Of a stretch of 64,000 nucleotides of DNA, positions 8,062 to 17,047 are shown in pieces; within the stretch, counting starts at the first letter, position 1; each line of letters starts with the position of its first letter. Source of the DNA: an uncultured Bacillota bacterium. Its GTDB lineage: Bacteria; Bacillota; Clostridia; Oscillospirales; Oscillospiraceae. Where the stretch lies: NCBI GenBank assembly GCA_947426945.1, contig CANEFX010000001.1, positions 77,238 through 141,237 of the forward strand, in the 5' to 3' direction. Made by a program: the position numbers and the translations under genes. The notes below the pieces were generated by a model, which saw only the letters and a program-made list of their open reading frames with translations, ran no database searches and had not been told where the DNA came from.

Positions 8062-8317
8062 TTCCGCCGCCTCCTTTGATATTCCTATTGTAGCCCCTTC
8101 CAGAGGAATTGTGAAGAGGAGATTTTTACTTAAAAATAGAAATATCGTTCGCACGTGACGGGATTTTCATGGGGGGAGGGGCACAATCTACCCCTTCGCC
8201 AGGCGGATGAAAGGAAAATAGTCCTGAGCGCAGAGCCGTTGTCCGCATTTCCCCGCCCCGGCAGAGAAATGCAGATTAATCTGCTTAGAATATTTCCGGT
8301 GGAAGGGAAAGAAGAAG

Positions 8318-8515
8318 TTGAAAAGCCGGGTGAAAAAGGTAATCCGGAATGTCCGGACTCGGGAGGACGAGACGCTGATTGCCTGCAACACGCGGTTTGA
8401 CGGCAATCCCCGAATGATGCTTCGGGTGGCTGTCTGTGTCCCGACGGTGAAGGGGAGCGGCGCTATCCACTATAAGACGCCGGCCGCCGACATGCTGGCC
8501 CAGAGAAAAGTATAG
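8318..8515 (+). pseudogene. Unrecognised ORF remnant cut by the 50-bp palindrome
   Basis: An open frame of 65 codons with protein-like composition (for example RNVRTREDETLIACNTRFDG), but no credible start or ribosome site. Its stop lies inside the 50-bp repeat, and its last residues are encoded by the repeat. I do not recognise the family. It may be the end of a gene disrupted when the island rearranged, or a chance frame. Confidence 0.25.
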
Positions 8516-8555
8516 CGGTTTACCCGTTCATTAAATATAAACGGGTAAACCGCTA
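8506..8555. repeat. 50-bp palindromic repeat, copy A
   Basis: A 50-bp segment identical to 13035-13084. It is a 16-bp perfect stem (8513-8528 with 8540-8555) with an 11-nt AT-rich loop. Read on the minus strand the stem is followed by TTTTCTCT, so it would act as a terminator in that direction, although no minus-strand gene leads into it here. Confidence 0.85.
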
Positions 8556-8594
8556 CTGCTATTGTACTAATATTGCGTAACTGCATAAATGTTA

Positions 8595-8623
8595 TTGACA
8601 TTACTTTTAATTTTGTGTATAAT
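8595..8623 (+). promoter_or_regulatory. Perfect-consensus sigma-A promoter
   Basis: TTGACA (8595-8600), exactly 17 bases, then TATAAT (8618-8623) preceded by TGTG. It would start transcription about 25 bases before the ATG of the secreted-protein gene at 8655. Confidence 0.85.
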
Positions 8624-8654
8624 TATATCAAACAAATGATTGAAGGGTTCTATT

Positions 8655-9944
8655 ATGTATAAACGTATCGTCAGCAATTTTCTATGTATTACGATCCTTT
8701 TTTCAGCATTGGTTGCTCCATCCTATGCAATCAATAACAATGATGCCCTTTACTCTAATAATGAAACTAGCTATTGTATAGAATTCAATGATGGCATCAA
8801 CCTCTATTCCCCAGCAGTAGAATCCAATTTAGAATCAATTTCGCAAGAGCTTAAAGAAGTCGTTTTTAGTGTTGATGCGGGGGATGATGTTTTTACTATT
8901 GGTTATTATTTGGGCGATGAACCCTTTTCCATGGCGAAAATTACACAGGAACTTGAAAAGACTTTAGATAATATTCGTGACGATATAATAACCGATGAAC
9001 GACTTTCTTCTAACAATCAGGTCAATGCAGAAAATATGGAATTGGAATATGTCGTGATTAATACTACAGATTCAATCTCAAAAATAGAATCGAAATTATC
9101 TGAAGTAACATCCACTAATCACTTGGTTGATACTATAGAAGGGAAATATCAAAATCATAATATAGCGAAAAGCAATGTAGCAAAATCAGCCACAATCAAT
9201 GGAAGCTATCATGATAGAGACGTATTCAGAGAGCAACATGATATTGGCTGGTACAATCAAAACACCGGAAGATTTAGCGTGTGTACTACATCACCTACTG
9301 CTCCACATTCTGGTGATGGGAATAACCGTTATGAATCTGGATATCAGTGGTTTCCGGATTTAGTTGACGTCGATTTTTCTACCAATGTGACAGCAACCGA
9401 AAACAGAACAAAATTATGGTATTATTATTATCCAAACACCCTAAAAAACCTAAATGTTGACTCTAATGAAGCGTTAGAAATGGAAGTTGTGTTTTATAAT
9501 TATACAAGCTCATCTACAGAGGCATCCCTCAAAGGAAGCGCATTTCAATACATAAAGAGCGGTTCTACATGGGCAACAAATCAGCCAAATAGCTATAGAG
9601 ATACTTCTTTTGCCGATAGTAAAAATAAAGTTAGTTTTTGTGTTGGTGTAGATGACACCTCAGATTTGGTTGCCAACAAATGGTATTATTGGTATATTGA
9701 TGGGACTAAGGGAACAACAGCAAATAATTACAGACATGATGGTCGTTTTGTTGTCACTGCTCAAAGAGGGTATCGTTTAATTGGTAGTGGTGCATGGAGT
9801 GTCTTTGCTGAAGAACACGAGGGAATCCGTCGCCTTGGAGTTAATGAGGATCAGAACTGGGTTCCAGAAGGAACCACCGCTTGGTCTCTTGCAGCATCTA
9901 ATAGTACTTGGCATTTTAAATCATCAACTGATCCGGTAACATAG
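8655..9944 (+). CDS. Unknown secreted protein of the island (429 aa)
   Basis: I do not recognise this family. The protein starts with a clear signal peptide (MYKRIVSNFLCITILFSALV..SYA) and has no further membrane segment, so it should be exported. The mature part is rich in Asn, Ser, Thr and Tyr. A helical first part (to about residue 140) precedes a probably beta-rich second half with Trp/Tyr motifs (WYYYYPNT, KWYYWYIDGT). ATG 8655 is used with GAAGGG upstream; the in-frame TTG at 8640 is too close to the promoter. Codon use is AT-rich, unlike the backbone. It is followed after one base by a small membrane protein, and the pair shares a consensus promoter and a terminator. Confidence 0.75.
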   Translation: MYKRIVSNFLCITILFSALVAPSYAINNNDALYSNNETSYCIEFNDGINLYSPAVESNLESISQELKEVVFSVDAGDDVFTIGYYLGDEPFSMAKITQELEKTLDNIRDDIITDERLSSNNQVNAENMELEYVVINTTDSISKIESKLSEVTSTNHLVDTIEGKYQNHNIAKSNVAKSATINGSYHDRDVFREQHDIGWYNQNTGRFSVCTTSPTAPHSGDGNNRYESGYQWFPDLVDVDFSTNVTATENRTKLWYYYYPNTLKNLNVDSNEALEMEVVFYNYTSSSTEASLKGSAFQYIKSGSTWATNQPNSYRDTSFADSKNKVSFCVGVDDTSDLVANKWYYWYIDGTKGTTANNYRHDGRFVVTAQRGYRLIGSGAWSVFAEEHEGIRRLGVNEDQNWVPEGTTAWSLAASNSTWHFKSSTDPVT

Positions 9945-9945
9945 T

Positions 9946-10356
9946 ATGGGGTGGATATTAAGTGCTATTGTCTATACGATTCAAATATTGGGAATAGTAT
10001 TCTTTGCTAGTATCGCACCTACTCTGGTGTTTTTTATCAAAAAAAATAAAAAAGTCTTTTGTATGATATTTTGTCTTTGTCTAATGGTTGAGATGGTTGG
10101 AATATTCTTTTTAGCAAAACGACCGCTTTGGATATGTCCCTCCGAATATAATAAATATCTCTCACCAGAGGATAAGGATACTCTTATTGGTCTAAACTCA
10201 GGTATTTATAGTTACAGAATACCCATTATTGCAACTTGTGTCTTTGTTAAATATGCTGACCAAACCACTATTGAAGTCGAAACGTACTATTTGATGTTCG
10301 GGCGTACCGAGATGTCTCTCAGTGAAGATGGGATATATAGTACCGAGTTACGGTGA
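9946..10356 (+). CDS. Small membrane protein paired with the secreted protein
   Basis: A 136-aa protein with two hydrophobic helices near the N-terminus (WILSAIVYTIQILGIVFFAS and VFCMIFCLCLMVEMVGIFFL), then a soluble C-terminal half. It starts one base after the stop of the upstream gene, so translation is very likely coupled. The family is not recognised. The tight pairing with an exported protein is like an effector with its membrane partner or immunity protein, but this is inference from layout only. Confidence 0.7.
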   Translation: MGWILSAIVYTIQILGIVFFASIAPTLVFFIKKNKKVFCMIFCLCLMVEMVGIFFLAKRPLWICPSEYNKYLSPEDKDTLIGLNSGIYSYRIPIIATCVFVKYADQTTIEVETYYLMFGRTEMSLSEDGIYSTELR

Positions 10357-10363
10357 GCGATCC

Positions 10364-10410
10364 ACAACTCAGCCTTGCGATATATAGTTGCAAGGCTGAG
10401 TTGTTGTAAA
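10364..10410 (+). terminator. Terminator of the secreted/membrane protein pair
   Basis: A perfect 15-bp stem (10364-10378 with 10390-10404) with an 11-nt loop. It lies 8 bases after the stop codon and is followed by TGTAAACTTTT. Confidence 0.75.
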
Positions 10411-10413
10411 CTT

Positions 10414-10678
10414 TTACTGTAAATATTTCTGAAGCCCCATCCTTAAAATCTCATTAACCACCTCTGTCAACTTCTTGTCCTCTTCCAGTCCCATCTTCCG
10501 TAAAGCCTTATCCAAATCACGATCTATGAAATAAGACCTCTGTACCCGGTCTTTGTTCTTCCCTTCAGTCGCTACCGGCTGTCTGGCAGCGCTCGGCTCC
10601 TGTGTTGACTGCCGATCCGCCCCAACAATGACCTTGAACGCTGCCTCCTGGTCAAACTTTGCTTTTCCTGCATTCCCG
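10414..10678 (-). pseudogene. Ribbon-helix-helix type plasmid/ICE protein, frame disrupted at start
   Basis: Reading the minus strand to a TAA at 10414 gives about 88 codons (AGKAKFDQEAAFKVIVGAD..., then VQRSYFIDRDLDKALRKMG, and NEILRMGLQKYLQ). This resembles small DNA-binding proteins next to partition genes on plasmids and integrative elements. The only ATG (within GGGAATGCAGG) is one base out of frame, as if a G after ATG had been lost. The gene is therefore probably dead, unless an unusual start is used. Confidence 0.5.
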
Positions 10679-10683
10679 GTTAA

Positions 10684-10878
10684 TCAGCGCCTTTTTGTAA
10701 GAGTTTCATACTCGACCAACTCTGATTCATGATCACCTCGATACTGCTCCAGTTGCTCTCCGATCAGATCACTCAGGCTCCGCCGCTGTACATAGGCAAT
10801 TTTCTGGATATCCTCATAAAGACTTGGCAGCACCGACAAGCCGACCCGTTTCTTCGTCTCCCTGTCCTCTCTGGGCTG
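10684..10878 (-). pseudogene. 5'-truncated ribbon-helix-helix protein, copy 1
   Basis: An open frame of 64 codons on the minus strand containing RETKKRVGLSVLPSLYEDIQ and RRSLSDLIGEQLEQYR, typical of Arc-type ribbon-helix-helix proteins of mobile elements. The frame runs back into a TGA with no start codon. Its first part lies in the 207-bp repeat, so its true N-terminus was replaced by the end of araR. A paralogue truncated at the same point lies at 15740-15916. Confidence 0.5.
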
Positions 10879-11032
10879 TCAGGAACCAACCGGCCTCTCT
10901 GGAGACGGCGGAGATCCGGCTGGAGCTGCTGTGACGCAGACTCAGCCGCTCTCCCGTTCCACCAGCTGCCAGGGAACGGTCTCGGACCGGCATGTCTCTC
11001 CCCGGAGCAGGCGAAGCATCAGATTGGCGGCC
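10826..11032. repeat. 207-bp exact direct repeat, copy 1
   Basis: Identical over 207 bases to 15864-16070 in the same orientation, 5,038 bases apart. It contains the first codons of the truncated ribbon-helix-helix frame and the last 30 codons of araR. Both flanks differ from those of copy 2, so the duplication was followed by rearrangement. Confidence 0.95.
10942..11032 (-). pseudogene. Duplicated 3' end of araR
   Basis: Encodes only the last 30 residues of AraR (ending in TVPWQLVERESG) as part of the 207-bp repeat. Upstream of 11032 the frame joins unrelated sequence, so this is a non-functional remnant. Confidence 0.8.
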
Positions 11033-11217
11033 GCCGGTATGCCACCATCGCCGGAAAATACGGCGGGGGCGTATTCTGCAACCTGCCTGACGGCACCGTC
11101 TGCATGTGCAACTACTCCTACCAGCATGAGGGCTCCGACTTTATGGTGGGCGACACCGTGATCATCGTAGTCCAGCGGTTTGAGACGGAAAACGGCAGAT
11201 GTACGGGAAAATCATGA
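11033..11217 (+). pseudogene. C-terminal fragment of an S1-like (OB-fold) protein
   Basis: The plus strand encodes GKYGGGVFCNLPDGTVCMC, NYSYQHE and VGDTVIIVVQRFETE before a stop. This follows the layout of an S1-type RNA-binding domain (G-GxF-L-DG-xxC-hxxS---F-xGD-V-V-V). The N-terminal part is missing because the sequence breaks at the edge of the 207-bp repeat. Probably the tail of a mobile-element gene. Confidence 0.35.
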
Positions 11218-11230
11218 GCAAGTGGTGACA

Positions 11231-11270
11231 AAACGACAGCCCGGACGATGCACCGCACGTCCGGGTTGTT
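11231..11270 (+). terminator. Terminator after the S1-like fragment
   Basis: Stem CCCGGACG/CGTCCGGG (11240-11247 with 11258-11265), extended by AAC/GTT pairing and followed by TTGTTTGCTCT. Confidence 0.55.
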
Positions 11271-11365
11271 TGCTCTGCTGATTAATCCATCATAAGGACA
11301 TGATTTGGATAACACCAAATATCCCAGACAATAACACAGAAATCATCGAAAATCGCGTAACTCCT

Positions 11366-11536
11366 TTATTTATTTTTTTGTGAACGAGAAAAAAGGCCTA
11401 TAACCGCAAGAATAATTCCAAGAATAGCAGCATAACAGGCTACATCTCGGTAAATTAATCCTCCAAGAACCACACCAATAAGGCCGAAATTTACACCGAC
11501 CAGTTCAACCACAATACTAAAAAGCAATAACTTCAT
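11366..11536 (-). CDS. Small membrane protein (56 aa) coupled to the 279-aa secreted protein
   Basis: MKLLLFSIVVELVGVNFGLI begins a 56-residue protein with two hydrophobic helices and a short basic tail ending SRSQKNK. Its ATG overlaps the TGA of the upstream secreted-protein gene (ATGA), so translation is coupled. Length and codon use fit a real small gene. The family is not recognised. This is one of three small membrane proteins in the island that directly follow a secreted protein. Confidence 0.65.
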   Translation of the reverse strand: MKLLLFSIVVELVGVNFGLIGVVLGGLIYRDVACYAAILGIILAVIGLFSRSQKNK

Positions 11537-12372
11537 ATATCATAAGGAAATTCTGTATAAATTGCGGTGGACTCTGTGTTACCAGAAATATTACCACTTA
11601 CTGAAAATACACCGACATTAAATCCGACAGTTACTTCACCAGGGTCATCACAGTGAACATATTGCAAATTGACAGTTGTATTATGGGTCTCCCCATACGT
11701 ACCCGCATAATACATAGGAGCTCTTGTCTTCAAATTAAAATGGGCATAACCAACACGCGATTCGACAGCTCCCCAGCCATAATGTAACTTTGCTAAATAT
11801 CCTAATCCACCTTGAGTTAACTCTGTAGGTCTATTCCAAGAGTCGAGTTCCACATACCCTCCTTTTTCAAGGAATGCTCCTGATTCAGCTGAAAAACCTG
11901 TCGCATAAAAAAGAGAAGCATCCCAATTAATGGCTATTGTATCAGTCTTTTTAATTGATGGCCTTCCATTTGCCCATTCATAATTTATATATATCCCTAC
12001 AGATTCAATTTTTGCAATACCATCGCTCGTTACAGCCATGTTGAACACATGTGTAATTCCCACGCCTAGATAGTCAATGTCTCCCTGCGCATATGGTATA
12101 ATACTTCCAGTTCCACTCAATTTGCTAGTGGACGTTCCACCATAGAGAACAGTACCATCTTTTGCTCCAAGATAAAGTTCATCGAGATCTTCAGACCGAA
12201 GCGTTTCCAAAAATTCAATTGGAAATCCTCTGTCTTTCAGATAAGATATTTTATTCATATCATTTTCTGTCACAGCAAATGTGGGAACAGAAAGCAGGAT
12301 ACAAAGGACAAAACAAATTACTCCTTTAAAGCCATGTTTCATATAAAGTCCCTTCTGCAATGATGCTTTCAT
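11533..12372 (-). CDS. Unknown secreted protein of the island (279 aa)
   Basis: The N-terminus has a signal peptide (MKHGFKGVICFVLCILLSVP, cleavage after TFA). The mature part looks beta-rich, with many Gly, Tyr and Thr residues (YLGVGITHVFN, GGLGYLAKLHYGWGA, YAGTYGETHNTT). No family is recognised. ATG 12372 is served by AAGGAGG 8 bases upstream; an internal ATG ten codons later is possible. It is last-but-one in the sigma-headed array, after the second copy of the 120-aa gene, and overlaps its small membrane partner. Confidence 0.72.
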   Translation of the reverse strand: MKASLQKGLYMKHGFKGVICFVLCILLSVPTFAVTENDMNKISYLKDRGFPIEFLETLRSEDLDELYLGAKDGTVLYGGTSTSKLSGTGSIIPYAQGDIDYLGVGITHVFNMAVTSDGIAKIESVGIYINYEWANGRPSIKKTDTIAINWDASLFYATGFSAESGAFLEKGGYVELDSWNRPTELTQGGLGYLAKLHYGWGAVESRVGYAHFNLKTRAPMYYAGTYGETHNTTVNLQYVHCDDPGEVTVGFNVGVFSVSGNISGNTESTAIYTEFPYDI

Positions 12373-12451
12373 TTTGTTTTTCCTCCTTAGTAATTTTTAC
12401 CACCCAACAAGGACTTCACTTCAACCGTTGGTGGTCTGCACATGCAGCCCA

Positions 12452-12814
12452 TTAGCATTTACTCGCTGTCACCACTACTTCTGGCTGAACAGTTCCATTA
12501 ACTGTCGCCTCCAAAATTAGTGTATATGTTCCCTTTGCCAAAACAGTCTTGCTTTCAGATATCGTAACAGATCCTTTTCCGGAATCACTCCAGGAATCAA
12601 CGACTTCCGTTCCATACTTTAAAGTAAGCGTAACGGAAATATCGTTATCACGATTTCCAGAGCGGAAGATAGCCTCACAATACGCTGTATCTCCGCTGAT
12701 CCGTAATGTTGGTCTGCCCGAAATCACTCGGCTGCTCACCGCCGACGCAGTCGGCACAGTGATGGCCATTACAAGTAAAACCACCATCAGGAAGGGTACA
12801 ATACGTTTCTTCAT
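12452..12814 (-). CDS. Small secreted protein (120 aa), duplicated copy
   Basis: Signal peptide MKKRIVPFLMVVLLVMAITV..ASA, then a compact domain (RPTLRISGDTAYCEAIFRSG, GSVTISESKTVLAKGTYTLI) that looks like an Ig-like beta sandwich. It differs from the copy at 13967-14329 only in the last third. The first 75 codons lie in a 429-bp identical block, after which the sequences diverge abruptly. The ribosome site is GAGGAGG. The role is unknown. Its constant position before changing neighbours suggests a shared accessory of the cargo. Confidence 0.75.
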   Translation of the reverse strand: MKKRIVPFLMVVLLVMAITVPTASAVSSRVISGRPTLRISGDTAYCEAIFRSGNRDNDISVTLTLKYGTEVVDSWSDSGKGSVTISESKTVLAKGTYTLILEATVNGTVQPEVVVTASKC

Positions 12815-13016
12815 AAAAACACCTCCTCTCTACGCTGTACAAAAGCACCATTTCGTGCCTTTGCACTATTAACGCAGCGAGGAGGCCATTTCTTACAAAT
12901 TTTCAAAAATTTTTATTTTTCTGTCAATTTGCACAAAGACACACTGCCAGCCATCTTTAACAAATCTTCCTGGTCTACAAACCCATCAATCATAAATTGA
13001 ATCTTTTCCTGTTCAT
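12588..13016. repeat. 429-bp exact tandem repeat, copy 1
   Basis: Identical to 14103-14531, offset 1,515 bases, same orientation. It spans the 5' part and leader of the 120-aa gene and the 3' end of the anti-sigma gene. Both ends stop abruptly in sequence that is still partly similar (120-aa gene side) or unrelated (anti-sigma side). Confidence 0.95.
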
Positions 13017-13024
13017 TATACCAA
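12913..13024 (-). pseudogene. Duplicated 3' end of the anti-sigma gene
   Basis: Encodes the last 36 or so residues of the DUF4367 anti-sigma protein (FMIDGFVDQEDLLKMAGSVS to the stop) without the rest. It is the relic that shows how the second 120-aa gene arrived: as part of a homologous sigma/anti-sigma array joined by recombination. The interval 12815-13135 holds nothing else apart from the palindrome copy B. Confidence 0.8.
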
Positions 13025-13034
13025 CACTATTACC

Positions 13035-13087
13035 AAAAGTATAGCGGTTTACCCGTTCATTAAATATAAACGGGTAAACCGCTATAC
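13035..13087 (-). repeat. 50-bp palindromic repeat, copy B (terminator-like)
   Basis: Same 50 bp as 8506-8555; here the stem extends to 19 perfect pairs (13039-13057 with 13069-13087). On the minus strand it follows the 67-aa membrane protein gene and is followed by TTTTGG, so here it plausibly ends that transcript. Confidence 0.8.
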
Positions 13088-13135
13088 AGCGTGCAAGAGT
13101 AAGAAAACTTAAAAATCTTGTCCTCTTGGTTATCT

Positions 13136-13339
13136 CTATTTTTTATTTTTCAATCCATTTTGAAAAAACTTAATAATGCCTCTTGTCCCAAGAAAAAACC
13201 CAAAAATCGCTATTGCAATATACATTGTCAACTGAAGATAATTAGTGTCGCTTACTTTTATTATCGTCCATAATGATAGCGCCCCTACTGTAAGTTGAAT
13301 TAGCGAAAGTACCAAGGTATACGTTCTCTTATTAGCCAT
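13136..13339 (-). CDS. Small membrane protein (67 aa) following the 200-aa secreted protein
   Basis: Two hydrophobic helices (TYTLVLSLIQLTVGALSLW and LTMYIAIAIFGFFLGTRGII) and a basic tail FQNGLKNKK. It starts 15 bases after the stop of the 200-aa secreted protein gene. The family is not recognised. Position, size and topology match the other small membrane proteins of the island, suggesting a dedicated partner. Confidence 0.65.
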   Translation of the reverse strand: MANKRTYTLVLSLIQLTVGALSLWTIIKVSDTNYLQLTMYIAIAIFGFFLGTRGIIKFFQNGLKNKK

Positions 13340-13354
13340 TCAATGTATCCTCCA

Positions 13355-13957
13355 TCAATATGGATTCACACTAACTCCATTAGGATACCATCCATAGGTG
13401 TAGCGATCTTCTCTATGCCAGAAAATTCCCCTATACTCTAATTCAAGGTTAACTGCAATTCCCTTATTTCCGCAAAGCCCATTGACAAAGGCTGCTGCCC
13501 CCAAAAGCCACGAAGCGATATTTACTCCTGGAATAAAATTTGCTCCAAGCTTCTTAGTTATCGCATTCGCTACAATTGTTGCCGCCTTATTTGCTACTCC
13601 CAGTTTTAGCAAGGTATCTACCCCACCTACAATAAAACTCGGGGCTCCTATTGCTTCGTTTGAAATTCTAATTGTATACGTCTTCCTTGTTCCTAATTCT
13701 TCGGTAGGCGTCAAGCCTTGTACAGCAATGTTTCCGCTTGTTGAACTATAAATGTTTTCAATAATAGTAACATCTACAGTATTTCCTTCGCCATCATCAA
13801 CTTGAATTGTTTCTTCATTTGTTTCAACGAGGTACATTGATGTTTCGCTTGCTTCCATACTTGGAATCTCACTTGCACATGCAAAAGTAGTACACAAGGA
13901 CAGACAAACTGCAATTGTCAAAAACAGAGAAATTATCCTTTTCATAAAATATTTCAC
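13355..13957 (-). CDS. Unknown secreted protein of the island (200 aa)
   Basis: A signal peptide (MKRIISLFLTIAVCLSLCTT..ACA) is followed by an acidic stretch. Then comes a hydrophobic, Ala/Gly/Lys-rich helical region (LLKLGVANKAATIVANAITK, FIPGVNIASWLLGAAAFVNG) and a Tyr/Trp-rich tail ending WYPNGVSVNPY. The central region resembles membrane-active peptides in composition, which would fit a pore-forming or bacteriocin-like role, but no known family is recognised. It lies between the 120-aa gene and a small membrane protein gene. Confidence 0.72.
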   Translation of the reverse strand: MKYFMKRIISLFLTIAVCLSLCTTFACASEIPSMEASETSMYLVETNEETIQVDDGEGNTVDVTIIENIYSSTSGNIAVQGLTPTEELGTRKTYTIRISNEAIGAPSFIVGGVDTLLKLGVANKAATIVANAITKKLGANFIPGVNIASWLLGAAAFVNGLCGNKGIAVNLELEYRGIFWHREDRYTYGWYPNGVSVNPY

Positions 13958-13966
13958 TCCCTAATT

Positions 13967-14329
13967 TTACTTTTTCTCCGCAGTAACCACCGCTTCTGGT
14001 TGGACTACACCATTAATTGTGGCCTTTAAAATAAGGGTATAGCTTCCCTTCACCGAAACCGCTTTGCTTTTAGATATTGTAACAGATCCTTTTCCAGATT
14101 CGCTCCAGGAATCAACGACTTCCGTTCCATACTTTAAAGTAAGCGTAACGGAAATATCGTTATCACGATTTCCAGAGCGGAAGATAGCCTCACAATACGC
14201 TGTATCTCCGCTGATCCGTAATGTTGGTCTGCCCGAAATCACTCGGCTGCTCACCGCCGACGCAGTCGGCACAGTGATGGCCATTACAAGTAAAACCACC
14301 ATCAGGAAGGGTACAATACGTTTCTTCAT
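13967..14329 (-). CDS. Small secreted protein (120 aa), first copy
   Basis: Signal peptide and probable Ig-like domain as in the copy at 12452-12814. The first 75 codons are identical and the C-terminus diverges (SKAVSVKGSYTLILKATING, ending TAEKK). It lies directly downstream of the anti-sigma gene, with a leader of about 95 bases and an AGGAGG site. Likely a secreted product under control of the sigma factor. Confidence 0.75.
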   Translation of the reverse strand: MKKRIVPFLMVVLLVMAITVPTASAVSSRVISGRPTLRISGDTAYCEAIFRSGNRDNDISVTLTLKYGTEVVDSWSESGKGSVTISKSKAVSVKGSYTLILKATINGVVQPEAVVTAEKK

Positions 14330-14531
14330 AAAAACACCTCCTCTCTACGCTGTACAAAAGCACCATTTCGTGCCTTTGCACTATTAACGCAGCGAGGAGG
14401 CCATTTCTTACAAATTTTCAAAAATTTTTATTTTTCTGTCAATTTGCACAAAGACACACTGCCAGCCATCTTTAACAAATCTTCCTGGTCTACAAACCCA
14501 TCAATCATAAATTGAATCTTTTCCTGTTCAT
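14103..14531. repeat. 429-bp exact tandem repeat, copy 2
   Basis: Identical partner of 12588-13016. This copy is in the intact context: the 120-aa gene start, its leader, and the true 3' end of the anti-sigma gene. Confidence 0.95.
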
Positions 14532-15135
14532 CGTACCAAACTACAGCATTACTTTCTCCCAAATCCTTAGATAAATATAAATATCCAGCATGACCATTAA
14601 CCTCAACCTTCGTCGATTCTACCTCTTCCGTTTTAATCATAAGTGCAGAACCGCTCTCTACGTGAACATATTCAAAATAAATCGTATCTCCAACGCTATT
14701 TCTATATGTAACCGCTCTGCCGTCAATTAGCTCCTGAACCTCACCTGGTGCAACATACCCAGATGGTAATTCTCTAATTTCATACTCAGGAACAATCTCT
14801 GCATCTGGTTTTCCCGAAAATCTGTAAATAATATGGGTATCATACCACTCTATGAACCATGCTACGACTGCCGCTCTAACAGTCGGACTTGCTACCATAA
14901 TAGTTCCAAGGGTTAAGGAGCATACTAACAGAAAGACCGCAACACCTTGAATGCATCGTTGCCATAATGGCTTTTTGTTTCGCTCACCCCATTTCCTCGA
15001 TTTCTTCAGCAATTTATCAATCTGATTTTGAAAGCGCAGAGAGGTAGCTATTTGTTCAGTAGATGCCAGTTCATCGGCATATTCTTCCGCCGCAGCATCC
15101 AAAAAGATATCCCGCAAGATATAGTCATCTATCAT
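14428..15135 (-). CDS. Anti-sigma factor with DUF4367-like extracellular domain
   Basis: A 235-aa single-pass protein. A cytoplasmic N-terminal helix region (residues 1-75) would bind the sigma factor. A membrane segment lies near 80-100 (GVAVFLLVCSLTLGTIMVAS), and an extracellular DUF4367-like domain follows (GRAVTYRNSVGDTIYFEYV, VEVNGHAGYLYL). Its ATG overlaps the sigma stop by ATGA, the usual layout of a coupled sigma/anti-sigma pair. The signal it senses is unknown; a duplicated fragment of its 3' end lies at 12913-13024. Confidence 0.82.
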   Translation of the reverse strand: MIDDYILRDIFLDAAAEEYADELASTEQIATSLRFQNQIDKLLKKSRKWGERNKKPLWQRCIQGVAVFLLVCSLTLGTIMVASPTVRAAVVAWFIEWYDTHIIYRFSGKPDAEIVPEYEIRELPSGYVAPGEVQELIDGRAVTYRNSVGDTIYFEYVHVESGSALMIKTEEVESTKVEVNGHAGYLYLSKDLGESNAVVWYDEQEKIQFMIDGFVDQEDLLKMAGSVSLCKLTEK

Positions 15136-15653
15136 ACTGCATACCCCTCCTCTTCCAGCTTCTTCATCAGCAATATCCGTCCACGGTGAATCCGTGTATT
15201 TACCGTACTCTCTGTTAAATTCAATTTCTTTGCAATCTCTCGGGTATTACATTCCTCTACAAATCGCATCTCTAAAACCGCCCGATAGAGTTCCGGCATC
15301 TTATGGATTATCTCTAAAATCGGTTGACTGCTATCCTCTATGTCAAATTCTTCACCAACTATAGCTTCATTCAGCGGAATCTCCTTTCTCCGCTTACGAA
15401 TCATTGAAATAGCCTCATTCCTAACTATTATAACGAGGTAAGCACCTCTTTTCTTACACGGAACCGCTTGAATTTTGGAAAAATTTTCTACCACCCTTGT
15501 CCACGCATTCTGTACAGCATCCTCAGCCAACCCGTAATCTTGCCCGAAAAACTTTCTGGCAACCAAAAGCATCGCATTTCCGTATCGCTTATACAACTCT
15601 AAAAACTGTTGCCGCTCTATATCAGTCTCCAGCATAGATAAAAAAATCAGCAA
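15132..15653 (-). CDS. ECF-type RNA polymerase sigma factor
   Basis: A 173-aa sigma factor. Region 2 (FLELYKRYGNAMLLVARKFF, then DAVQNAWTRV) and region 4 (MRFVEECNTREIAKKLNLTE, STVNTRIHRGR) are clear, with no region 3. TTG at 15653 is the likely start, 8 bases after GGAGG. The TTG at 15668 overlaps the ribosome site, and the first ATG is too far. It heads the minus-strand array of anti-sigma and secreted-protein genes, so those are its likely targets. Confidence 0.88.
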   Translation of the reverse strand: MLIFLSMLETDIERQQFLELYKRYGNAMLLVARKFFGQDYGLAEDAVQNAWTRVVENFSKIQAVPCKKRGAYLVIIVRNEAISMIRKRRKEIPLNEAIVGEEFDIEDSSQPILEIIHKMPELYRAVLEMRFVEECNTREIAKKLNLTESTVNTRIHRGRILLMKKLEEEGYAV

Positions 15654-15739
15654 ATTTATTACCTCCAATTTTCTCTTTTTTACTGGAACAGCTGATATTC
15701 CTTCCTCCCTGCTGCAATTCTTATAATTCTTGCTTAATT

Positions 15740-15916
15740 TTATCGTACTCCAGCAATTCTGCCAAATGTTTTTTCGCTGTATTCACGCATAGCTGTACTT
15801 ACCGGTTCACTTATGCTTCTTCTCTGAGCATAAGAAATCTTCTGAAGATCCTCATAGAGGCTGGGCAGCACCGACAAGCCGACCCGTTTCTTCGTCTCCC
15901 TGTCCTCTCTGGGCTG
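15740..15916 (-). pseudogene. 5'-truncated ribbon-helix-helix protein, copy 2
   Basis: Same truncated start as the fragment at 10684-10878, because both begin in the 207-bp repeat. It then diverges (LYEDLQKISYAQRRSISEPV, EYSEKTFGRIAGVR). No start codon follows the upstream TGA. The two fragments are paralogues attached to the same scar. The interval 15654-15979 contains this fragment and the promoter region of the sigma factor, with nothing else recognised. Confidence 0.45.
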
Positions 15917-16070
15917 TCAGGAACCAACCGGCCTCTCTGGAGACGGCGGAGATCCGGCTGGAGCTGCTGTGACGCAGACTCAGCCGCTCTCCCGTTCCAC
16001 CAGCTGCCAGGGAACGGTCTCGGACCGGCATGTCTCTCCCCGGAGCAGGCGAAGCATCAGATTGGCGGCC
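15864..16070. repeat. 207-bp exact direct repeat, copy 2
   Basis: Partner of 10826-11032. Here the right part is the genuine 3' end of araR (stop at 15980), so this copy marks the original backbone side of the junction between the island and the arabinose locus. Confidence 0.95.
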
Positions 16071-17047
16071 AGCTCTCCCAAATTTCGGGAACCGTGAGAG
16101 AGAGAGGTCAGGTGTACCGGAGCCAGCTCACTGTACTGGCTGTTGTCAAAGCTGACCACCGCCATTTCCTCCGGCACCCGGACGCCCCGCTTCTGCAGCC
16201 GGGCGACCACCCGAACGGCCACCTCGTCGTTGTAGCACACGATGGCGGAGCAGTCCCGGAAGCCCTCCAGAATGGAGTCCACAAAGGCCTCGGACAGGAA
16301 GGCCTTCCGTTGTTCGGTATTGTACCAGCAGATGTGCTCGTCCTCGAAGGGAAGGCCCAGGTCCCGCAGGGCCTCCGCATAGCCGGCGTAGCGCAGGGTG
16401 CCCTGCATGTCGTCGATTTTGAAGATGCCCGCGATGTTCTGGTGCCCGTGCCGGTACAGGTGCTCGGTCAGCAGCCGCCCGCCGCCGTAGTTGTCGGCCA
16501 GCACGGAGGGGATGTGGGCCAGCTCGGGATAGACGCCGTTGATAAAGACCAGACGGACCCCCCGGTCGATCAGCTTCTGATACAGGTCCAGGTTGGGGTT
16601 GGGCAGAGCGGTTTTGGTGCCCTCCACCAGTATGCCGTCCAGCTCCTTCATGGTCAGCAGGGTCTGGAGGATCTTCCGCTCCACCGACAGCTGATTCTGG
16701 GTGGCGAATAGGAGAGGGGCGCTGCTGTTGGCAGCCAGAACGGTTTCCGTACCCCGCAGGATGCTGGGGAAAATATAGTCGCTGATATAGGTTGTAACCA
16801 CCGCAATGGAACAGTTCAGAAGAGCTTCCGGCTCTTTATGCTCCCGCAGGCGGGAGCCGCTGCCTTGGCGGCGGGTGATGAGACCCTCGCTTTCCAGCAG
16901 GGACAGGGCGCGGCGGACGGTCTGCCGGCTGATCTGAAAGCGCCGGCAAAGCAGCTGCTCGGTTGGAAGCAGCTGCTGATTGCTGTACTGGCCGTTTTCG
17001 ATCTCCTGCCGCAGGGCGTCGGCGATAGATTGGTACTTGGGCGCCAT
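15980..17047 (-). CDS. araR: AraR-type arabinose repressor (GntR HTH plus LacI-type sensor)
   Basis: A 355-aa chimeric repressor. Residues about 1-70 form a GntR winged helix (PTEQLLCRRFQISRQTVRRA, then SEGLITRRQGSGSRL); residues 75-355 form a LacI/GalR periplasmic-type sensor (SVLADNYGGGRLLTEHLYRH, VVSFDNSQYSE). This architecture is that of Bacillus AraR, released from DNA by L-arabinose. It is divergent from the arabinose transporter, and ATTTGTAC boxes overlap its own promoter, suggesting autorepression. Start ATG 17047 with GAGGAGG upstream. Its last 30 codons are duplicated at 10942-11032. Confidence 0.9.
   Translation of the reverse strand: MAPKYQSIADALRQEIENGQYSNQQLLPTEQLLCRRFQISRQTVRRALSLLESEGLITRRQGSGSRLREHKEPEALLNCSIAVVTTYISDYIFPSILRGTETVLAANSSAPLLFATQNQLSVERKILQTLLTMKELDGILVEGTKTALPNPNLDLYQKLIDRGVRLVFINGVYPELAHIPSVLADNYGGGRLLTEHLYRHGHQNIAGIFKIDDMQGTLRYAGYAEALRDLGLPFEDEHICWYNTEQRKAFLSEAFVDSILEGFRDCSAIVCYNDEVAVRVVARLQKRGVRVPEEMAVVSFDNSQYSELAPVHLTSLSHGSRNLGELAANLMLRLLRGETCRSETVPWQLVERESG

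Follow-up and report, generated by a model that had tools for sequence, protein, structure and literature searches.

A putative self-limiting sigma/anti-sigma island with exchangeable secreted cassettes in an uncultured Oscillospiraceae bacterium

In the phage T4 late genes e, I-TevI and soc, the ribosome-binding site (RBS) is masked by a hairpin whose 5′ strand contains a promoter; long transcripts are reported to be silent and promoter-started ones to be translated (PMC3014915, PMC2988022). Here we describe a comparable arrangement in a 64,000-nt stretch of an uncultured Oscillospiraceae genome (assembly GCA_947426945.1, contig CANEFX010000001.1, positions 77,238 to 141,237; hereafter the window), in an island headed by genes for an extracytoplasmic function (ECF) sigma factor and a DUF4367 anti-sigma factor. 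Two cassettes follow these genes, each encoding a secreted 120-aa protein (K120), a larger secreted protein (the cargo) and a small membrane protein (the partner). As in T4 gene e, the promoter before K120 lies in the 5′ strand of an RBS-covering hairpin, although many relatives lack it. Unlike in T4, the promoter is of the ECF type, the arrangement occurs on bacterial chromosomes at many loci with differing sequences, often with a T-run, and a second promoter copy lies inside the sigma gene; both devices are inferred from sequence. By analogy, the nested promoter would work like the T4 late-gene switch.

A promoter inside coding sequence beside an ECF sigma gene is known from Caulobacter, where sigV is reported to be driven from within the preceding cabp gene (PMC13171946). 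In that case the intragenic promoter serves the sigma gene downstream of it, whereas the one described here is internal to the sigma gene and would serve the anti-sigma gene. The island resembles other ECF sigma/DUF4367 anti-sigma pairs in having a Sigma70_r2/r4 gene followed by one for a one-helix DUF4367 protein, and differs from them in the frequent presence of K120, the nested promoter-hairpin, the promoter copy in region 2 and the changing cargo. SDP, lactococcin 972 and the lantibiotics with LanFEG are bacteriocins that Gram-positive bacteria secrete while protecting themselves by membrane proteins or ABC transporters. As in these systems, a secreted candidate effector at the loci studied here has a small membrane protein or an ABC set next to it, including, at locus L116, an ATPase resembling TIGR03740; unlike in those systems, no known bacteriocin domain was found here, and the L116 ATPase scores below the model's threshold. 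Polymorphic or exchangeable toxin-immunity cassettes combine a constant head with a changing effector and partner. The island is like them in these respects and in apparent recombination inside the shared head, and unlike them in that no toxin domain was found in the window and the partner is not common to the one comparable case.

Neither device was reported in the literature searched (promoter-in-hairpin together with sigma factors or toxins; intragenic promoters together with ECF or anti-sigma factors), which lacked most subscription journals; within the same limits, DUF4367 was named in no paper. IS10 and IS50 are protected against read-through, an example that was not found in that literature.

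A predicted promoter nested in a hairpin before K120

The ECF-type promoter of cassette 1 (14386-14412, minus strand; TGTAAG ... CGTT) is contained in a hairpin at 14325-14414 (minus strand), the 5′ strand of which is the promoter from -35 to -10 and the 3′ strand of which comprises the Shine-Dalgarno (SD) sequence, the U-tract and the start codon of K120 copy 1 (13967-14329, minus strand). The stem spans the whole promoter and pairs with the SD, the U-tract and the AUG. Its minimum free energy is -47.1 kcal/mol, compared with -24.77 ± 3.1 kcal/mol for shuffled sequences (z = -7.2). An identical second promoter and hairpin (12810-12899, minus strand; promoter at 12871-12897) precedes K120 copy 2 (12452-12814, minus strand), the product of which is 91% identical to that of copy 1.

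The hypotheses were derived from a first set of 61 K120 genes at 58 loci, the window included. Independent material consisted of a first hold-out from the same taxonomic family (20 genes at 20 loci), a second hold-out, from which four of 14 K120 genes were removed as repeats of earlier loci, and new sigma genes. Two genes without a K120-profile match were dropped (L055, an unrelated 649-aa protein, and L056, with a broken frame), as were L084 and L088, which had no called K120. The identical second upstream region of the window was counted once in the arm-swap comparison and in the tallies of hairpins in close and distant K120s, and twice in the tallies of shuffle pairing, of motif and T fraction, and of gene order. 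Some K120 starts were probably misplaced by the gene caller (L114 and L151).

The DNA before K120 genes contains promoters of the form TGTNNN-N17-CGTN, with a spacer and -10 element that can pair with the SD of K120. This motif was present in 30 of 61 K120 upstream regions of the first set and in 28 of 440 other genes, and the enrichment recurred in the first (11/20 vs 9/147) and second hold-out (5/10 vs 21/300). Pairing between the SD and upstream sequence at p ≤ 0.01 against dinucleotide shuffles was found for 24 of 61 K120 genes, compared with 15/440 other genes, 0/53 anti-sigma and 2/47 sigma starts. The corresponding counts were 6/20 for K120, 0/19 for anti-sigma, 2/21 for sigma and 2/147 for other genes in the first hold-out, and 4/10 for K120 against 11/300 sampled genes in the second. 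The hairpin occurred mainly in K120s close to those of the window (15/25 in the first set and 5/9 in the first hold-out, vs 8/35 and 1/11 of the distant ones).

The two arms of the hairpin belong together within each locus. When the 5′ sides of 80 distinct upstream regions were exchanged, pairing of the SD side with its own arm averaged -14.8 kcal/mol and with that of another locus -10.8 kcal/mol, a difference reached in none of 20,000 permutations; in 12 loci, including the window, the own 5′ side was the best of all 80. Of the 24 loci that have a hairpin as well as the motif, 23 have their predicted transcription start beyond the 5′ arm, so RNA started at the promoter cannot form the stem. 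Across the 24 loci the mean predicted probability that the SD is unpaired was 0.09 in read-through RNA and 0.40 in promoter-started RNA. The last 8 nt before the start codon had a T fraction of 0.51 in the 24 hairpin loci and of 0.25 in the 440 other genes.

Three further upstream regions deserve mention. In L151 the 5′ hairpin arm before K120 is duplicated in tandem, a change that might tune the switch or break it. In L104 the sigma gene has its own TTGACA-type promoter region paired with the RBS (z = -4.9), a nesting with a housekeeping-like promoter. In L165 a 156-aa secreted gene without a K120-profile match follows the anti-sigma gene and is preceded by a strong nested hairpin (energy -31.1, reached by 0/300 shuffles). 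L165 was the only one with a hairpin among 19 first genes after anti-sigma that lacked a K120-profile match, and it indicates that the nested device is not tied to K120 alone.

A promoter motif inside the sigma gene

The sigma gene (15132-15668, minus strand) encodes a short protein of 178 aa from the TTG at 15668 or of 173 aa from 15653, and is followed directly by the anti-sigma gene (14428-15135, minus strand). The assignment of both proteins made in the original prediction held in profile searches: the sigma factor matched Pfam Sigma70_r2 (8.7e-10) and Sigma70_r4_2 (2.3e-16), both over the cut-off, and TIGR02937 with 79 bits (cut-off 42.9), and the anti-sigma factor matched DUF4367 (5.2e-14; 53.1 bits, cut-off 22.1) and has one membrane helix by hydropathy, near residue 64. 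They are clear family members, and inhibition of the former by the latter is predicted.

A scan of the window for the promoter motif with one mismatch allowed found a copy inside the sigma gene at 15432-15458 (minus strand; TGTAAGAAA-N14-CGTT), in codons 66-74 of the 173-aa form; three matches were reached by none of 100 shuffles. Among 72 sigma genes labelled for the motif search, 15 contained the motif, 13 of these at nt 192-207. The same five letters of the -35 element occurred in the sigma gene and upstream of K120 in 13 of 14 loci with a motif in both places. In a protein-guided alignment of 19 positions, which covered 57 of 61 loci (L118, L083, L122 and L125 lacked the sigma segment), sigma-gene and K120 promoters from the same locus shared 12.63 of the 19 positions and swapped pairs 10.70 (0/20,000 permutations), while 36 other segments of the same sigma genes gave an average of 10.24 and a maximum of 11.47 matches. 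These permutation counts, like that of the arm swap, overstate the certainty, because sigma specificity is shared within clades and the loci, having common ancestry, are not independent. The safer argument is the repeated pairing of odd motif forms within loci: ACTCAC in L040, CATTT in L113 and L037, GATTAT in L097 and TGTAGT in L089.

The codons that encode the motif are themselves constrained. Of 37 valines in the motif column, 27 are encoded by GTT, compared with 142 of 558 valines elsewhere, and the preceding base is C in 36 of 57 genes. Among 35 combinations of column and residue, the three with the strongest codon bias (Val GTT, Thr ACT and Pro CCA) all fall within the motif. The result was replicated with 71 sigma genes new to the analysis (four of 75 were removed as repeats), in which valine was encoded by GTT in 30/44 cases vs 148/634, and the preceding base was C in 42/71. 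In the 27 of these loci with a usable downstream gene, own pairs matched at 13.43 positions and swapped pairs at 11.85 (0/20,000 permutations). The sigma-gene copy probably gives rise to an mRNA for the anti-sigma factor only; this is the simplest role for a copy that precedes the anti-sigma gene in sense orientation.

Cassettes, cargo and related loci

A check of open reading frames found all named genes at the coordinates given here. After K120 copy 1, cassette 1 encodes cargo A, a secreted 200-aa protein that has a hydrophobic segment close to the C-terminal end (13355-13957), and partner A, a 67-aa two-helix membrane protein (13136-13339). Cassette 2 encodes, after K120 copy 2, the secreted 279-aa cargo B (11533-12372) and partner B, a 56-aa two-helix membrane protein (11366-11536), the genes of which overlap by ATGA; all four genes are on the minus strand. 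Secretion and membrane calls come from a hydropathy script rather than a signal-peptide predictor; the script is crude and misses some proteins (e.g. in L040 and L083). The predicted order of a minus-strand array, with sigma, anti-sigma and K120 followed by two secreted and membrane pairs, is thus present. The third pair that had been grouped with it lies on the plus strand (429 aa, 8655-9944, and 136 aa, 9946-10356, one base apart). It does have its own promoter, as predicted, of perfect housekeeping type (8595-8623, TTGACA-17-TATAAT, 12/12 matches to the sigma-70 consensus). Since it is on the plus strand under such a promoter, the third pair is a neighbour rather than a member of the array, probably outside the control of the ECF sigma factor.

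The cassettes were duplicated. Positions 14103-14531 are identical over 429 nt to 12588-13016 (minus strand), a block that comprises the anti-sigma tail, the promoter, the hairpin and the 5′ part of K120 to mid-gene. Beyond it the 3′ parts of the two K120 genes differ at 35 of 136 ungapped positions and the cargos are unrelated. This sharp break inside K120, which looks like cassette capture or recombination in a shared head, bears out the exchangeable layout proposed for the window. The joint between the cassettes is occupied by a terminator-like 50-nt hairpin with a T-run (13035-13084, strand unassigned), the 39-nt core pattern of which, with up to three mismatches, occurs only twice in the genome; the second, identical copy (8506-8555) adjoins the third pair. 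The whole array is bracketed by a 264-nt direct repeat of 94% identity (10769-11032 and 15807-16070) that corresponds to the 3′ end of the neighbouring regulator gene (15980-17047), which we take to be of GntR/LacI type from the look of its sequence. The repeat is a possible footprint of an insertion at the 3′ end of that gene.

A search with a single query sequence detected K120 in 17 of 200 family genomes, and a profile detected it in 29 of 200; at a stricter threshold it was present in 50 of 400 family genomes. In the order it was present in 34 of 394 genomes. DUF4367 is more widespread (73/200 family genomes). An anti-sigma gene lies immediately upstream of 31 of 35 close K120s (both window copies counted) and 35 of 44 distant ones. 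The gene after K120 was called as secreted or as a lipoprotein in 20 of the 34 close cases that had enough sequence and in 13/41 distant cases, compared with 34/283 control genes, and the gene after a secreted cargo was called as anchored, secreted or a lipoprotein in 14/20 close and 11/13 distant cases, compared with 11/34 controls; the control genes were taken from the same loci, cargo genes included. Among 96 downstream proteins of the first set, only four cross-locus pairs were similar at E < 0.01, and in one of these the similarity lay in the signal peptide. Listing the genes downstream of homologous loci thus shows that the cargo varies, as had been anticipated, and is not fixed. Among the best 80 sigma relatives in named genomes, 56 had an anti-sigma gene, and K120 was present in 14 of these 56 loci; of the constant control genes originally envisaged, the constant set is therefore two genes, not three. 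In the wider set, 18 of the 27 next genes that could be assessed begin with a signal-like segment, and cargo therefore often follows the anti-sigma gene without K120. A cultured relative, Evtepia gabavorous KLE1738, carries sigma, anti-sigma and K120 genes (L174).

The eight proteins of the window other than the sigma and anti-sigma factors gave no match over the cut-off in Pfam or NCBIfam, so the cargo is as unrecognised as first reported. The lowest E-values were 0.017 (K120 copy 2 to NF041538) and 0.026 (the 200-aa protein to NF038340, the 'SAR2788 family putative toxin', with 14.3 bits and a cut-off of 50), both sub-threshold. Seven of the eight, with K120 copy 2 omitted, gave nothing at E 0.1 in PADLOC and only weak matches in PHROGs, the best being 0.002 for K120. 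The window K120 did not match DUF6147 (PF19644) at E ≤ 1, whereas one distant relative, L119, matched it below the threshold (E = 0.013; 16.1 bits, cut-off 24). The AlphaFold2 model of K120 is an Ig-like β-sandwich, confident from residue 31 onward, with blocks at a predicted local distance difference test (pLDDT) score of 92-98; a fold search gave no informative matches beyond a generic Ig-like sandwich. The profile and structure searches proposed earlier thus yielded a fold for K120 and no known toxin or immunity domain in the window.

Recognisable cargo was found in relatives, in a Pfam scan of 20 chosen downstream proteins from other loci. The cargo of L047 matched Amidase_6 (4.7e-11) and that of L115 Phage_lysozyme2 (1.2e-29); papain-like proteases were represented by Peptidase_C70 in L113 (1.9e-5) and L090 (4.5e-5) and by a sub-threshold C39 match in L046. 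In L116, L118, L089, L101 and L111 the sigma, anti-sigma and K120 genes are followed by genes for small secreted proteins or lipoproteins and membrane permeases. ABC ATPase sequences are present in L116, L118 and L111 (in the profile scan, L116 only), and these are candidate bacteriocin self-protection sets. The best NCBIfam match of the L116 ATPase was TIGR03740 (lantibiotic protection), with 163.4 bits, under the cut-off of 309.75.

Proposed regulation and alternative explanations

We propose that the island provides tight, self-limiting expression of exchangeable secreted cassettes, an explanation that we consider probable as a whole and somewhat more firmly so for its regulatory anatomy. 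In the OFF state, a low-level sigma/anti-sigma transcript started outside would extend into the K120 gene, and its copy of the promoter sequence would pair with the RBS of K120; the hairpin and T-run would block translation and may end transcription. In the ON state, a signal would free the sigma factor, and polymerase would start at the promoter within the hairpin. Because the promoter is the 5′ strand of the hairpin, only transcripts started there should escape it; the new mRNA would lack that strand, and K120, cargo and membrane partner would be made. For shut-down, the sigma factor would use the promoter copy in its own gene to produce an mRNA with the whole anti-sigma gene and an incomplete sigma gene, from which we infer negative feedback. 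The cargo would probably act on bacterial competitors, and the small membrane protein would shield the producer. Neither control device formed part of the original prediction.

The observations do not all point to a switch of this kind. The hairpin is missing or weak in 10/25 close and 27/35 distant K120s of the first set, in 4/9 and 10/11 of the first hold-out and in 6/10 of the second, and a first, cruder test gave a weaker contrast (12/46 K120s below -15 kcal/mol vs 30/310 others). Only 10 of the 24 hairpin loci show a predicted gain in SD accessibility above 0.3; in the window the value changes from 0.17 to just 0.28, and 13 motif loci without a hairpin also show a rise, from 0.29 to 0.54. 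The hairpin might instead be an intrinsic terminator of the sigma/anti-sigma operon that shares its sequence with promoter and SD for economy and has no translational role, which we regard as a real but lesser possibility. The T-rich tail fits a terminator equally well, the best duplexes have a median of 17 pairs (30 loci), and several hairpins have an A-tract before and a T-tract after them; however, just 12 of the 24 hairpin loci have TTTT within the last 10 nt, an ordinary terminator has no need to sit on the SD (though the test examined the SD only), and the window hairpin was absent from the output of a simple terminator scan over 8300-16300, perhaps owing to the loop limit of the scan. 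The two roles may coexist, and sequence by itself cannot separate them. For the copy inside the sigma gene, it counts against a promoter role that the own pair is the single best match in only 10/57 and 6/27 loci, and that, when third-base dominance is ranked regardless of the amino acid, the motif holds four of the top 12 columns and not the top two. The site could be a decoy or pause site that binds sigma-RNA polymerase, and intragenic sigma sites are reported to be often silent or pausing (PMC10771440). We think this unlikely, as the site precedes the anti-sigma gene in sense orientation and keeps -35 and -10 at the same spacing, and its variants track those of the K120 promoter, which a pause site would not obviously need. 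An origin of the K120 promoter by copying from the sigma gene, the likeness reflecting ancestry and not function, seems very improbable: all 19 compared positions are identical in two loci (L051 and L085), but in 14 well-matched loci the 14-nt spacers that separate the shared elements agree, on average, at only 4.4 of their 14 positions, so the sigma-gene motif is not a plain copy; moreover, odd -35 and -10 forms (ACTCAC, CATTT and GATTAT) are shared pairwise in separate loci, and synonymous sites in the motif are biased.

What the cassettes deliver is less clear than how they would be controlled. The weapon reading of the cargo, for which the relatives and the layout are the basis, falls in our judgement slightly short of an even chance, and only marginally behind it we place the proposal that K120 and the cargo are produced under envelope stress and serve to protect the envelope, to adhere or to scavenge nutrients. 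The latter accommodates the generic Ig-like sandwich of K120 and the absence of a toxin domain among the unrecognised window cargo (Pfam, NCBIfam, PADLOC and PHROGs), which does not exclude a new toxin; the structure prediction of the 279-aa protein, with a pLDDT of 35.2, is of low confidence. It would also suit the 14 of 34 close K120 loci in which the crude script called no secreted next gene, and the one 279-aa relative that looks real (L139 1-1101, 31%), where 16 nt separate the gene from that of an unrelated 152-aa anchored protein in place of the 56-aa two-helix protein of the window. Variation of the cargo by locus and the apparently tight gating speak for weapons instead, and it is because some relatives carry cell-wall hydrolases, papain-like proteases and ABC sets, one of them near the lantibiotic-protection model, that a secreted weapon is plausible but unproven. 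The original prediction of toxin-immunity pairs therefore gains weapon-like cargo in some relatives and no recognised toxin or immunity domain in the window, and as to its pairing of each cargo with a membrane protein, close loci have a gene for an anchored or secreted protein or a lipoprotein after the cargo more often than controls do, and in the one comparable case the partner differs.

A more general reading, on which we are evenly balanced, is that a class of ECF sigma genes writes its own promoter in its region-2 codons, that the internal start produces anti-sigma factor only and gives rise to a pulse, and that the copy in the hairpin locks weapon cassettes against leaky expression. As part of the same joint reading, the residue after the conserved cysteine (Pro, His, Lys, Ser and others) and the synonymous valine and threonine codons would track the recognised promoter. 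If this is true, the target promoter of such a sigma factor would be readable from the sigma gene itself, which would offer a handle on the specificity of uncharacterised ECF factors. The nested device would then show the T4 late-gene switch at work on bacterial chromosomes, reused many times with differing sequences, and a nested promoter-hairpin after an anti-sigma gene would be a simple marker for secreted-effector cassettes in gut Clostridia.

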